Source: Clostridiales bacterium
GTDB taxonomy: Bacteria > Bacillota > Clostridia > Christensenellales > Christensenellaceae
Direction of reading: 5' to 3'
Assembly: GCA_015056045.1 (NCBI GenBank)
Contig: SVGZ01000012.1
Coordinates: 1-64,000 of the forward strand
Length of the DNA: 64,000 nt
Made by a program: the position numbers and the translations under genes. Positions 11,286 through 15,328 of this stretch are shown here, piece after piece. The stretch's first letter is position 1. Each line of letters starts with the position of its first letter. The notes below the pieces were generated by a model. The model saw nothing but the letters and a program-made list of their open reading frames with translations. It was not told the origin of the DNA and ran no database searches.

Positions 11286-11999
11286 TTAGTCGACCTTGTT
11301 TTTGAGGCGCTTATCGAGCTTGACGGCAAGCTTTGTGCCGATGCTCTGGAAGCACTGCACCATAATAATGAGCAGGATAACGGCCAGATACATGACAAGG
11401 TATTTATAGCGGTAATAACCGTAGTTGATCGCAATTTTGCCAAGACCACCGCCGCCAATGATACCGCTCATTGCCGAGTAGCTGAGGATCGTCGTGATCG
11501 CGATCGTCGCATTGGAGATCAGCGAAGGTACGCTTTCGGGAATCATGACTTTCATGATGATCTGCATCGGGGTTGCGCCCATACTCTGTGCAGCTTCAAT
11601 GATATTCGGATTGATCTCACGAAGGCTGCTTTCCGCAAGTCTTGCGACAAAGGGGAATGCCGCCGTTACAAGCGGGATGATCGTTGCGGCTGTGCCGACG
11701 ACTGTACCGATGATGAGCCTTGTCAGCGGGAATACCATGACCATCAAAATCAGGAACGGAACAGACCTGAGCAGGTTGATGACGACGTTCAGCGTACGCA
11801 TGAACCATTTCGGCATGGGCATGACGCCGTTTTCTTCACCAACAACGAGAAGGATACCCAGCGGCAGACCGATCACGATCGCAAATAATGTCGCCAGAAC
11901 CGTTACATAGAGCGATTCCCAGATCGCCATCGGGAATTCCGTAACGACGATATCAATGGCTTCCGAAATTGCTTCGGGAGAAAAGATATTCTCAGACAT
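11286..11999 (-). CDS. metI: Methionine ABC transporter permease MetI
   Basis: About 237 residues with five to six membrane helices. The permease signature region reads LLRSVPFLILMVMVFPLTR, and the coupling-helix segment is AESSLREINPNIIEAAQSMGATP, where EAA-x3-G contacts MetN. Start at the ATG at 11999 with GGAGG nine bases upstream; this start overlaps the metN stop. Imports methionine (and D-Met) together with MetN and MetQ. The operon is governed by the leader at 14071-14258. Confidence 0.95.
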   Translation of the reverse strand: MSENIFSPEAISEAIDIVVTEFPMAIWESLYVTVLATLFAIVIGLPLGILLVVGEENGVMPMPKWFMRTLNVVINLLRSVPFLILMVMVFPLTRLIIGTVVGTAATIIPLVTAAFPFVARLAESSLREINPNIIEAAQSMGATPMQIIMKVMIPESVPSLISNATIAITTILSYSAMSGIIGGGGLGKIAINYGYYRYKYLVMYLAVILLIIMVQCFQSIGTKLAVKLDKRLKNKVD

Positions 12000-13005
12000 G
12001 TTCACTTACCTCCTCTGCCAATACATCGGGTGTTGCTGTTAAATAATCGATCGCACGCTGCGTTTCCGCAGGACCACCGGAAATACCGAGAAGCATCGTC
12101 CCGTAAACGCCTTTGCCGATGCACTTCGTCGAAGCATAGGCAATATTTGCCGCAATGCCGATATCGATCGCCATCTTTGTGATAAGAGGCGTATTCGTTG
12201 CCATTGCGCCGTTGAAAACAACACGGATGATCGCCGTATTCGGGTCTTTCATATCGACTGTGCCCTTTTCGCCTTCGGGGAAGACGAGTTTTCTTGCCGC
12301 ATCGGATTTCGGATGAGAGAAAACTTCGCTGACTTCGCCCTGTTCGACGACTTCGCCGTTATCGAGGATCGCAACATGCTGGCAGACGCTTTCCACAACA
12401 CTCATCTGATGTGTGATGATAATGACGGTGATGCCGAGCCTGTCATTGATATCGCGGATCAGGTCAAGAATAGACTGTGTCGTTGTCGGGTCAAGCGCAG
12501 AGGTCGCTTCATCACAGAGCAGGATCTTCGGGTTTGTCGCAAGCGCACGGGCAATCGCAACACGCTGCTGCTGTCCGCCGGAAAGCTGCGCAGGGTAAGC
12601 ATTTGCTTTTTCCGCAAGACCGACGATCTCCAGAAGTTCCATTGCGCGTTTTTTCGCATCCGCAGGCTTAACACCCGAAAGCTCGAGCGGGAAGCATACG
12701 TTTTTTAAGCAAGTGCGCTGCATGAGCAGGTTGATGCCCTGGAAGATCATGGTAATATCGCGGCGCATTGCGCGGAGTTCTGCCTCGGGCAAGCTGCCGA
12801 TATCGACGCCATCGATCACGACGCTGCCTTCGGTCGGTCGTTCGAGCATATTGATACAGCGGACGAGCGTACTTTTGCCTGCACCGCTCATTCCGATGAT
12901 GCCGAAAACATCTCCATCAGGAATGGTAAGGGAAACATTTTTTAATGCTTCGAAAGCGCCATCCGCACCGCGGAAGGTTTTGGTCAGATTTTTGATTTCG
13001 ATCAT
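11992..13005 (-). CDS. metN: Methionine ABC transporter ATP-binding protein MetN
   Basis: 337 residues. Walker A GMSGAGKST, Q-loop MIFQGINLL, signature LSGGQQQRVAIARAL, Walker B ILLCDEATSALDP and a switch His in IIITHQM. The C-terminal extension of about 95 residues is the NIL/ACT-like domain that binds methionine and inhibits transport (trans-inhibition). Start at the ATG at 13005 with GGTGG upstream; a TTG at 13017 is an alternative. A stem-loop lies in the gap to metQ. Confidence 0.96.
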   Translation of the reverse strand: MIEIKNLTKTFRGADGAFEALKNVSLTIPDGDVFGIIGMSGAGKSTLVRCINMLERPTEGSVVIDGVDIGSLPEAELRAMRRDITMIFQGINLLMQRTCLKNVCFPLELSGVKPADAKKRAMELLEIVGLAEKANAYPAQLSGGQQQRVAIARALATNPKILLCDEATSALDPTTTQSILDLIRDINDRLGITVIIITHQMSVVESVCQHVAILDNGEVVEQGEVSEVFSHPKSDAARKLVFPEGEKGTVDMKDPNTAIIRVVFNGAMATNTPLITKMAIDIGIAANIAYASTKCIGKGVYGTMLLGISGGPAETQRAIDYLTATPDVLAEEVSEHV

Positions 13006-13012
13006 GTAAGCC

Positions 13013-13049
13013 ACCAAAGAAACCCGCCGGAGTATATACCCCGGTGGGT
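13013..13049 (-). terminator. Intercistronic stem-loop between metQ and metN
   Basis: Leftward ACCCACCGGG (13049-13040) pairs with the strand ending at 13022, followed by TTTCTTT. It could be a leaky terminator or RNA-stability hairpin giving more MetQ than MetN/MetI, as is common for ABC operons. Confidence 0.55.
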
Positions 13050-13064
13050 CTTGTGTTTTTTATC

Positions 13065-13916
13065 TTATTTCTTGATTTCGTCTAAGGAATCTGTCTTGCC
13101 AGCGTAGATGCCCAAGGGTTCTACATGGACTGCGGAAACGGAAACGATGTGTGTGCCGTTTTCTGCATTGAAGTCATCGAGATACGGAACGTGCTGGAAG
13201 TAGTTTGCATCGATTTCGCCGCTTTCAACAACGTTGTTGGGCTGAACGTAATCTGTGAATTCTTCGATAACGAGTTCGATGCCTTTTTCAGCAAGGATTT
13301 CCTTTGCAACTGCGAGGATCTCTGCATGGGGTGTCGGGGATGCTGCTACGCTGACTTTTGTGCCGTCGAGAGCTGCATAGTCGATGGAAGCATCATAACC
13401 GTCTGTGAGGTTATCAACTGTGGAAACAACTGCACCGCCATAGGTAGCTGTGATGAAGTCTGCAACCTGTTTGCTTTCGAGAGCTGCAACAAGAGCCTTG
13501 ATAACCGGGTTTTCTTCGTTGCCTTCTTTTACAGCGAGGATGTTACTGTATGCGGAAGAGGAACCTTCGAGTGCGAGAGCATCTTCAGCCGGGTTAAGAC
13601 CTGCCGGGAGAGCATAGTTGGAGTTGATAACAGCAAAGTCAACGTCCTTTAATACATTGGGGAGCTGAGCAGCTTCAACTTCGTTGAATTCGATGTCATA
13701 GGGATTTTCAGCGATATCACGGATTGTTGCTGTGATGCCGGCGCCTTCTTTTAATGTGATGAGGCCAATATTCTCGAGGAGGAGAAGTGCACGAGCTTCG
13801 TTTGTTGTGTCATTGGGAACGGCGATCGTGACGTTCTTTTTGCCGCAAGCGGTAAGACCGAATACACAGCTGAGAAGAAGAACGATGCTGAGTGTGAGAG
13901 ATAACAGTTTTTTCAT
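13065..13916 (-). CDS. metQ: Methionine-binding lipoprotein MetQ (NlpA family)
   Basis: 283 residues. Signal peptide with lipobox LTAC and Cys near residue 24, so it is anchored on the outer face of the membrane. The mature part shows the NlpA-family pattern: IAVPNDTTNEARALLLLE, DFAVINSNYALPAG and the C-terminal ligand lobe. Its order is unusual: the N-terminal lobe begins with the NDTTNEARAL segment and the VVESGEIDANYFQHVPYL segment comes late, whereas in typical MetQ the latter two are in the order that I recall as VEFTDY..N.AL..GEID.N.FQH early. This suggests a circularly permuted arrangement. AAGGAG precedes the start. First structural gene of metQNI. Confidence 0.88.
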   Translation of the reverse strand: MKKLLSLTLSIVLLLSCVFGLTACGKKNVTIAVPNDTTNEARALLLLENIGLITLKEGAGITATIRDIAENPYDIEFNEVEAAQLPNVLKDVDFAVINSNYALPAGLNPAEDALALEGSSSAYSNILAVKEGNEENPVIKALVAALESKQVADFITATYGGAVVSTVDNLTDGYDASIDYAALDGTKVSVAASPTPHAEILAVAKEILAEKGIELVIEEFTDYVQPNNVVESGEIDANYFQHVPYLDDFNAENGTHIVSVSAVHVEPLGIYAGKTDSLDEIKK

Positions 13917-13992: not shown

Positions 13993-14052
13993 CTACCGGC
14001 ACATTCGCATGTTTTTGATATTCGGACCGGTCAGGTGAAGCTTTACGTTCAT
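13993..14052 (-). CDS. Second small ORF between the met attenuator and metQ
   Basis: A 19-codon frame (MNVKLHLTGPNIKNMRMCR) with a strong GGAAGGAAACC-ATG start, beginning 19 bases after the attenuator T-tract. Three Met codons, two in NMRMC. No terminator follows it before metQ. It may be translated once the attenuator is read through, for instance to keep the mRNA occupied. No homology recognised; possibly a relic. Confidence 0.4.
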   Translation of the reverse strand: MNVKLHLTGPNIKNMRMCR

Positions 14053-14070: not shown

Positions 14071-14100
14071 AAAAAAGCGTAAGACCCAAAAGCCTTACGC
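14071..14100 (-). terminator. Attenuator terminator of metQNI
   Basis: Leftward GCGTAAG (14100-14094), 10-base loop, CTTACGC (14083-14077), then TTTTTT (14076-14071). It lies between the Met-rich leader peptide and metQ, so the operon is expressed only when it is bypassed. Confidence 0.85.
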
Positions 14101-14148
14101 TGTAAACTCATTCCTCTTGACCGGTTCAAAGTTTATCGGTTGGTAAGC
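14092..14148 (-). promoter_or_regulatory. Antiterminator pairing in the metQNI leader
   Basis: GCTTAC (14148-14143) can pair with GTAAGGC (14098-14092, one bulged G), and TAAACT (14135-14130) with AGTTTA (14108-14103). The 3' arm is the 5' arm of the terminator, so the two folds exclude each other. The 5' arms are the last codons and stop of the leader peptide, so a ribosome at the stop would block the antiterminator. Confidence 0.65.
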
Positions 14149-14231
14149 ATTTCGGGAAAAGACACAGAAAGATTCGTGCGCATCGTCATCATGCACATGC
14201 CCATTTTCATTGTAGTGCCGAGTCTTTTCAT
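14133..14231 (-). CDS. Methionine-rich leader peptide of the metQNI attenuator
   Basis: A 32-codon frame with eight Met codons, six of them within the ten-residue stretch MKMGMCMMTM, and a further Met (codon 28) four codons before the last. A GAAGAAAGG ribosome site lies upstream. It starts about 27 bases after the predicted transcription start and ends 33 bases before the terminator stem. By analogy with trp/his leaders, shortage of Met-tRNA would stall the ribosome at codons 8-17, leave the antiterminator free, and switch on methionine uptake. Too short for routine gene finders. Function inferred from arrangement alone. Confidence 0.75.
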   Translation of the reverse strand: MKRLGTTMKMGMCMMTMRTNLSVSFPEMLTNR

Positions 14232-14264
14232 CGAAGCAAACCTTTCTTCCAATATTACAAAGTG

Positions 14265-14294
14265 ATTATACGGCGATATGCGCCCGCTTGTCAA
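14265..14294 (-). promoter_or_regulatory. Promoter of the metQNI operon
   Basis: Leftward TTGACA (14294-14289), 18-base spacer, TATAAT (14270-14265). Consensus hexamers; start expected near 14258. Confidence 0.8.
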
Positions 14295-14379: not shown

Positions 14380-15156
14380 TCAGACGAGCGCCTGCAGTTT
14401 TTCATCATCCAGCTCAAGGAAAACCGGGCAATGATCGCTGCCCATGATATCGGGCAAGATACCCGCTTCTTTGATGCAATCCGCAAGCCTTCCCGAAACG
14501 ATGAAATAATCGATACGCCAACCGATGTTCCTTGCCCTTGCGTTTGCACGGTAGCTCCACCACGAATACGCATCCTTTACATCGGGATATAAATAGCGGA
14601 AGCTATCGACAAAACCTGCCGAAAGAAGTTCCGTCATCTTGCCGCGTTCTTCATCCGAAAAACCGGGGTTGCCTCTGTTTGGGCCTGGATTTTTCAGGTC
14701 GATCTCATTATGTGCGACGTTTAAGTCTCCGCAGAGGATAACAGGTTTTTTCTTATCGAGTTCCTGCATATAGGCGCGCAGATCATCTTCATATTTCATG
14801 CGGTAATCGATGCGTGCAAGCTCGGGCTGTGCGTTTGGCGTATAGGAATTGATCAGGTAAAAACCGGGCATTTCAACGGTGATCGTTCTGCCTTCGCCCG
14901 ATTGACCGGGAAAATCGTTTGTAACGGCGATCGGCTGCAAAGCCTCCGAAACAAAAGTGACCGTTCCCGAATAGCCTTTTTTGATTGCCGAATTCCAATG
15001 CTGTTCAAAGCCGGGTGTTTCGACGACTGCCTGCCCTTTGTGCATCTTGCTTTCCTGAATGCAGAAAAAGTCCGCATTCTGTTCGTTTAATCTATCGATG
15101 AAGCCCTTGCCCATGCAGGCACGGAGCCCATTCACATTCCATGAAACAAATTTCAT
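14380..15156 (-). CDS. xth: Exodeoxyribonuclease III (AP endonuclease)
   Basis: 258 residues of the EEP nuclease fold. FVSWNVNGLRA (Asn), FFCIQESKM (catalytic Glu), LINSYTPNA, CGDLNVAHNEID (Asp/Asn) and GSDHCPVFLEL (Asp-His) are the complete metal and catalytic set of the XthA/ExoA group. It incises DNA at abasic sites and has 3'-5' exonuclease activity in base excision repair. Start chosen at 15156, with AAAGGA upstream, giving the standard MKFVSWN beginning; the longer frame to 15225 overlaps its promoter. Single gene, divergent from the kinase gene. Confidence 0.95.
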   Translation of the reverse strand: MKFVSWNVNGLRACMGKGFIDRLNEQNADFFCIQESKMHKGQAVVETPGFEQHWNSAIKKGYSGTVTFVSEALQPIAVTNDFPGQSGEGRTITVEMPGFYLINSYTPNAQPELARIDYRMKYEDDLRAYMQELDKKKPVILCGDLNVAHNEIDLKNPGPNRGNPGFSDEERGKMTELLSAGFVDSFRYLYPDVKDAYSWWSYRANARARNIGWRIDYFIVSGRLADCIKEAGILPDIMGSDHCPVFLELDDEKLQALV

Positions 15157-15328
15157 ATTGTATCCTTTCCGAAAAGAAAATTCAGATTCCTTTGTTTTTT
15201 CTATTATATCATGTGCGATGCCCATTTTTAAGAGGAATCTTTAATTTACAATGAAATCGAAAGATGATAGAATAAAATCGTATAATTATGAAATCAATAC
15301 TTCCCACAGGAAGTTTTTGGAGGAAATG

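Follow-up and report, generated by a model that had tools for sequence, protein, structure and literature searches.

The window, by which we mean the whole stretch of 64,000 nucleotides analyzed here, carries the methionine transporter genes metQ, metN, and metI on its minus strand. They are preceded by a promoter, a short methionine-rich open reading frame (uORF1), an intrinsic terminator, and a second short frame, uORF2 (Table 1). The original prediction had described a consensus promoter, a 32-codon frame with a good ribosome-binding site and eight Met codons, an intrinsic terminator, and an antiterminator ahead of metQNI. Its coordinates and letters for the leader region were right, and the promoter, frame, and terminator are all there; uORF2 was absent from that account. 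The eight Met codons of uORF1 include the start and six core ones (codons 8, 10, 12, 14, 15, and 17), and the peptide has one Cys. The terminator stem (14101-14076) comprises 11 pairs, followed by the T run. One promoter-like site was found, and shuffled sequences yield about the same number. The whole leader RNA is only mildly more stable than its shuffles (z -1.5). An Rfam search of the window gave no match, neither S-box nor T-box. The best match of metN was TIGR02314, with a score under the family cut-off. Upstream of the leader, on the same strand, lies a gene of the Exo_endo_phos family (exonuclease III-like; 14380-15225).

Table 1. Coordinates of the leader features and transporter genes in the window
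Feature	Position	Strand	Remark
Promoter of the leader, TTGACA-18-TATAAT	14294-14265	minus	12/12 consensus matches
Ribosome-binding site of uORF1, AAAGG	14245-14241	minus	
uORF1, Met-rich leader peptide MKRLGTTMKMGMCMMTMRTNLSVSFPEMLTNR	ATG 14231 to TAA 14133	minus	32 codons
Element 1, ribosome-binding/start region of uORF1	14232..14243	minus	predicted to pair with element 2; window fold and comparison
Element 2, final codons of uORF1 (CGAAATGCTTACC)	14142..14154	minus	predicted alternative partner of element 1 or the terminator 5' arm
Intrinsic terminator (elements 3 and 4) with T run	14071..14101	minus	
Upstream of uORF2, GAAAGGAAGGA	14067-14057	minus	
uORF2, MNVKLHLTGPNIKNMRMCR	13993..14052	minus	between terminator and metQ
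Codon motif of uORF2, CGA-ATG-TGC	13999..14007	minus	CGA-ATG invariant
metQ, Met-free circularly permuted methionine-binding lipoprotein	13065..13916	minus	PF03180
metN, ATPase with NIL domain	11992..13017	minus	start codon uncertain
metI, permease	11286..12005	minus	

The comparison covered 80 metQ relatives with upstream DNA, together with a search of 60 relatives of the window's genome. At least five Met within 13 leader residues occurred in 39 of 71 metQ upstream regions. The same criterion gave no hit in about 700 control upstreams of other ORFs and none in 3,550 Markov shuffles; three nominal control matches were the same leaders, reached from ORFs overlapping the metQ upstream region. 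A Met-rich ORF that happens to precede an ordinary terminator might be suspected from the window's own antiterminator, which is not above chance, but these counts and the retained Met codons of the relatives rule it out and make a chance origin hardly credible. After duplicate removal, a leader, here defined by four or more Met in 13 residues, was present in 38 of 69 metQ upstreams, all in Clostridia-type genomes, and an intrinsic terminator in 36 of these 38; 21 of the 69 had neither leader nor uORF2 motif. The leader peptides are diverse (e.g., MKKTMTRKMDMGMCMCMCPYFFMPFSE, MSKRAMMMDMMMRMMDVMCMRRYA, and MTTMMLTCTMTMMWMCGMMYRALVRYALEKR). Therefore, the Met codons persist as the remaining sequence changes. 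Such retention, which the original prediction had named as a check on its reading, is strong although both peptide and DNA diverge.

The arrangement extends beyond metQ. We scanned 391 genomes of the class with a DNA pattern for Met-Met-x-Met-Cys-Met and obtained ten matches. Three were a leader plus terminator before metY (L115, L119, L120), the gene of O-acetylhomoserine sulfhydrylase by its family assignment, and one was a leader before metN (L114); the remaining six lack this organization and resemble chance matches or parts of genes. With an additional metY leader in L182, the number of genomes with leader and terminator before metY is three (L115; L119 and L120; L182). The genes behind these leaders (metQ, metY, and metN) have methionine supply in common. 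At 20 leader-bearing metQ loci, Rfam recognized no S-box, T-box, or other family at the leader. Three features of an attenuator are present: a short ORF with a ribosome-binding site, a conserved run of codons for the amino acid that the operon supplies, and a terminator before the genes. The recurrence of the leader-terminator order before metQ, metY, and metN supports, at the level of the class, the leader-peptide attenuation that had been proposed for the window.

Methionine makes up 22.8% of the residues of these leaders and cysteine 8.2%. Since Cys codons are also enriched, the sensed signal may be Met plus Cys. In its fullest form, this idea holds that the leader senses a general shortage of sulfur amino acids, stalling at Cys or Met codons alike turning the operon on. 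The placement of Cys directly after Met (65 residues) and the frequent Arg-Met-Cys reading of uORF2 speak for it. However, Met outnumbers Cys nearly threefold, the leaders of L096 and L065 are nearly or wholly Cys-free, and the window leader has one Cys against eight Met. We regard a general sulfur signal as somewhat unlikely.

In many promoters of metY and metQ (L035, L038, L115, L119, L132, L137, and others), operator-like ACCTA...TAGGT repeats overlap both the -35 box and the start region. By eye, a gene whose end looks like that of an Rrf2 regulator lies just before metY in L173, L181, L184, L185, L190, L191, and L195. Both features would suit a scheme in which a DNA-binding regulator exerts the main control at transcription initiation, the leader being secondary. 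The window promoter, however, has no ACCTA/TAGGT site, and such a scheme leaves the Met codons and terminator unexplained; we consider it very unlikely.

The RNA structure of the leader provides further evidence. The predicted pairing of element 1 with element 2, linking the start region of the leader to its end, is conserved with compensatory changes. Its duplex exceeds shuffles with a combined p of 4e-12. On exchange of partners among 35 loci, own partners gave -23.5 kcal/mol against -17.8 for swapped ones (p <= 5e-5). These p values assume independence among sequences that are in fact related. Kinship inflates them, and therefore the compensatory changes themselves weigh most. A fixed-column structure for all leaders failed, as the helix slides between clades; covariation was for this reason counted in one clade. 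In 14 sequences of that clade, RNAalifold supported the helix, and pair counting gave a covariation score of 0.222 versus 0.148, with none of 500 shuffles as high and the signal destroyed by sliding. In this clade, 6 pairs of the whole structure changed on both sides: at one of them A-U is replaced by G-C and by U-A, and others show a single such change. The covariation sought as a check on the original prediction is thus found in this stem.

The antiterminator claimed for the window is present in the sequence. Its CTTAC:GTAAG helix belongs to the best fold of 14148-14092 without the terminator 3' arm (-9.5 kcal/mol versus -15.2 for the terminator). The terminator faces no competition from the second helix, TAAACT:AGTTTA. 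In this single sequence, the fold is no better than shuffles (p 0.70). Within one clade, 98.6% of cells are paired between element 2 and the terminator 5' arm, with no covariation. With a ribosome placed on the Met run, pairing of the terminator 5' arm was 0.61 versus 0.52 in shuffles (combined p 4e-4); by duplex energy (p 0.08) and by partner swap (p 0.07), the pairing of elements 2 and 3 was not above chance. Given clade conservation and mixed statistics, the putative antiterminator pairing appears conserved but weak, and we call it plausible only. In the leaders L054 and L085, sequence downstream of the Met run forms about 12 or more pairs with the 5' region of the terminator. At -20.9 and -25.9 kcal/mol, respectively, these antiterminator candidates are far stronger than those elsewhere.

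The second short frame, uORF2, proved to be a recurrent feature as well. Of the 69 metQ upstreams, 35 have a uORF2-type motif in frame with a start, located within the leader itself in L080; among metY upstreams, the motif occurs in 17 of 49. Where leader, terminator, and a later motif occur together, the motif follows the terminator in 25/25 loci, near-duplicates included. The commoner form, x-R-x-N-F-R-x-x-R-M, used as a pattern on 391 genomes, gave 25 matches, of which 22 precede metY, two precede metQ, and one is a chance hit; the reversed control gave one. In L141, uORF2 lies inside the operon, between metI and metQ. The metY copies mostly occur without a Met-rich leader, and therefore uORF2 is a separate module. 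Rfam matched no family at 20 uORF2 loci. A search of 24 genomes for uORF2-like ORFs before other genes, with a pattern that is insensitive, gave no excess over the reversed control.

The most constant property of uORF2 lies in its codons. As the pattern itself had required CGAATG, the codon test was redone without this requirement, on metQ and metY upstreams found by protein. CGA was used in 49 of 55 Arg-Met pairs. The exceptions all lay inside Met-rich uORF1 frames or in one likely chance ORF (L193), and one of the 49 CGA cases sits in a uORF1 (L080). Within uORF2, all 48 Arg-Met pairs used CGA (two pairs each come from three loci in this count), compared with 7.6% CGA among background Arg codons. 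A TGN codon followed the Met codon in 42 of the 48. CGAATG was among the commonest hexamers (55 of 118 upstreams, versus 2 to 7 for related hexamers). The only universal feature of uORF2 is an in-frame CGA-AUG. In Oscillibacter valericigenes, a cultured species (L063), two CGA-ATG motifs occur in one uORF2 (MQILLKERMCPSCSRLRRNGRM), at -110 and -71 of metQ.

Two other accounts of this conservation have to be weighed. uORF2 could be a ligand-sensing arrest peptide, of the TnaC or SpeFL kind, that responds to Met or SAM through the nascent chain LVRANFRFGRM. This peptide is indeed conserved, with synonymous DNA changes, in one broad group, and conservation of nascent-chain residues is confined to that group. 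Elsewhere the peptides are unrelated (NMRMCR, LNIDRM, YCRM, YIFRMC), yet CGA remains invariant. A model acting through the peptide would not predict a fixed codon alongside a variable peptide; a purely peptide-level arrest is for this reason disfavored, and we judge a nascent-chain sensor unlikely. Alternatively, CGAAUGUG of uORF2 could be an RNA-level site, the target of a protein or small RNA, lying in an ORF by chance. That nucleotide-level conservation reaches past the Met codon, to the TGN, would be expected of such a site; against this, of the 58 CGAATG copies, 55 share the frame of a start that has a ribosome-binding site (one, L189, within an upstream gene), and just 11 of these 55 are also open in another frame. 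The RNA-site explanation is quite unlikely.

In his-leader assays in Salmonella, CGA was translated less well than CGU and CGC and increased de-attenuation (PMC4046918). Therefore, a Met-sensitive pause at CGA-AUG would be reasonable. Tentatively, CGA-AUG-UGN may be a portable codon-level pause module, in which a slow CGA in the P site (inosine-adenosine pairing) would make the lone next AUG a sensitive gauge of Met-tRNA; we hold this to be quite possible, though short of probable. Such a module would be used alone before metY, within an operon (L141), before a terminator, or behind a Met-rich attenuator. The terminator cases are metY loci L140, L151, and L160, where a terminator-like hairpin follows the CGA-AUG ORF (by eye). 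The candidate pause site lies 53 to 144 nt upstream of the next gene, and one candidate link between a pause in uORF2 and higher expression would be that the mRNA is shielded from decay.

The proteins encoded behind these leaders are themselves sparing of methionine. MetQ of the window has no Met after the start. Among MetQ proteins behind a leader or uORF2, the mean is 0.69 Met after the start, and 26 of 49 have none; those without leader or uORF2 average 2.5 (n = 21). In other ORFs, 2.47% of residues are Met. MetY proteins behind uORF2 are mostly Met-free. Such low-Met MetQ and MetY would fit proteins made under methionine scarcity. Furthermore, MetQ of the window (and of L031-L100) is naturally circularly permuted relative to the MetQ/NlpA family. 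Its N-terminal half corresponds to PF03180 positions 95-234 and its C-terminal half to positions 1-97, and solved MetQ-type chains match it in two swapped stretches. The AlphaFold model has a pLDDT of 91.5, and Foldseek aligns only about half of it to MetQ crystals. One paper (PMC4990184) describes a glucose-binding lipoprotein with divergent, permuted topology; our literature search found no circular permutant of MetQ.

Sequence comparison establishes a conserved leader with its Met codons and terminator, covariation in the predicted 1:2 helix, and a uORF2 with invariant CGA-AUG. The best explanation of these features is probably a two-layer, translation-sensed control of methionine uptake, in which a Met-responsive leader-peptide attenuator is joined by a second translated module, uORF2. 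From them we infer the stalling, the antitermination, the response to methionine, and all action of uORF2. In the first layer, when Met-tRNA is ample, the ribosome would complete uORF1 and mask element 2, so that the terminator forms. When Met-tRNA, and possibly Cys-tRNA too, is scarce, the ribosome would stall in the Met run and leave element 2 free to pair with the terminator 5' arm, whereupon transcription would read into metQNI. Pairing of elements 1 and 2 would hide the ribosome-binding site of the leader and put element 2 back in the off state. In the second layer, uORF2 would be present only on read-through transcripts, where its CGA-AUG is our best guess for a second Met-sensitive pause that raises the output of Met-free MetQ. 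A same-genus relative (L002) has the leader and no uORF2, and therefore the second layer is dispensable.

Leader-peptide attenuation in response to methionine is largely missing from the known amino acid controls. It appears to be widespread in mostly uncultured gut Clostridia, where it spans uptake (metQ, metN) and synthesis (metY). uORF2 apparently requires CGA among the synonymous Arg codons, so that the influence of codon context and inosine wobble on gene control can be tested directly. The leader and uORF2 together would help sequence-based prediction of the sulfur amino acid regulon in these bacteria.

T-boxes and S-boxes are usual in Clostridia, and Met T-box and S-box riboswitches control the same genes in other lineages, in contrast to the window with its lack of an Rfam match. 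In an Erysipelotrichaceae MAG (L089, 2172-2395), metQ is preceded by a T-box (119 bits) instead of the leader, and S-box-like (SAM riboswitch) sequences were seen by eye before metY in L187 and L192, of other lineages. The only precedent that we found for a Met leader before metNIQ is metL of Streptomyces lividans, a prediction: a leader containing Met and Cys, MSTTSDRTPATEATTTPGARCMCRRMCAF (PMC8079986). It shares the downstream transporter with the window system, and its peptide also has Arg-Met-Cys. Unlike the window leader, which has a ribosome-binding site and a terminator, metL is leaderless, has no clear terminator and few Met codons, and is predicted in one species. Our literature search found no other Met leader and no description of uORF2 or of its layout between switch and gene; coverage was incomplete and such absence is weak evidence, and the module may be new. 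A 2005 survey of Actinobacteria reported no such element for methionine (PMC1262725). In Bacilli, a His leader before hisS/hisZ replaces a T-box (PMC2965389); it is a classical leader in Firmicutes like ours, but for histidine and different genes. uORF2 resembles the TnaC, SpeFL, and Erm arrest peptides in being a short translated ORF with a few key codons near its end, whereas its universal feature is a codon pair and not a peptide sequence. uORF1 also resembles the trp, his, and ilv attenuators of enteric bacteria, which likewise have a short ORF rich in the operon's amino acid, a terminator, and an alternative pairing, a predicted one in the window, over the end of the ORF. The window leader differs from them in using Met (with Cys), in its Clostridia host, in an element 1 that is the leader's own ribosome-binding site, and in the second uORF that follows.
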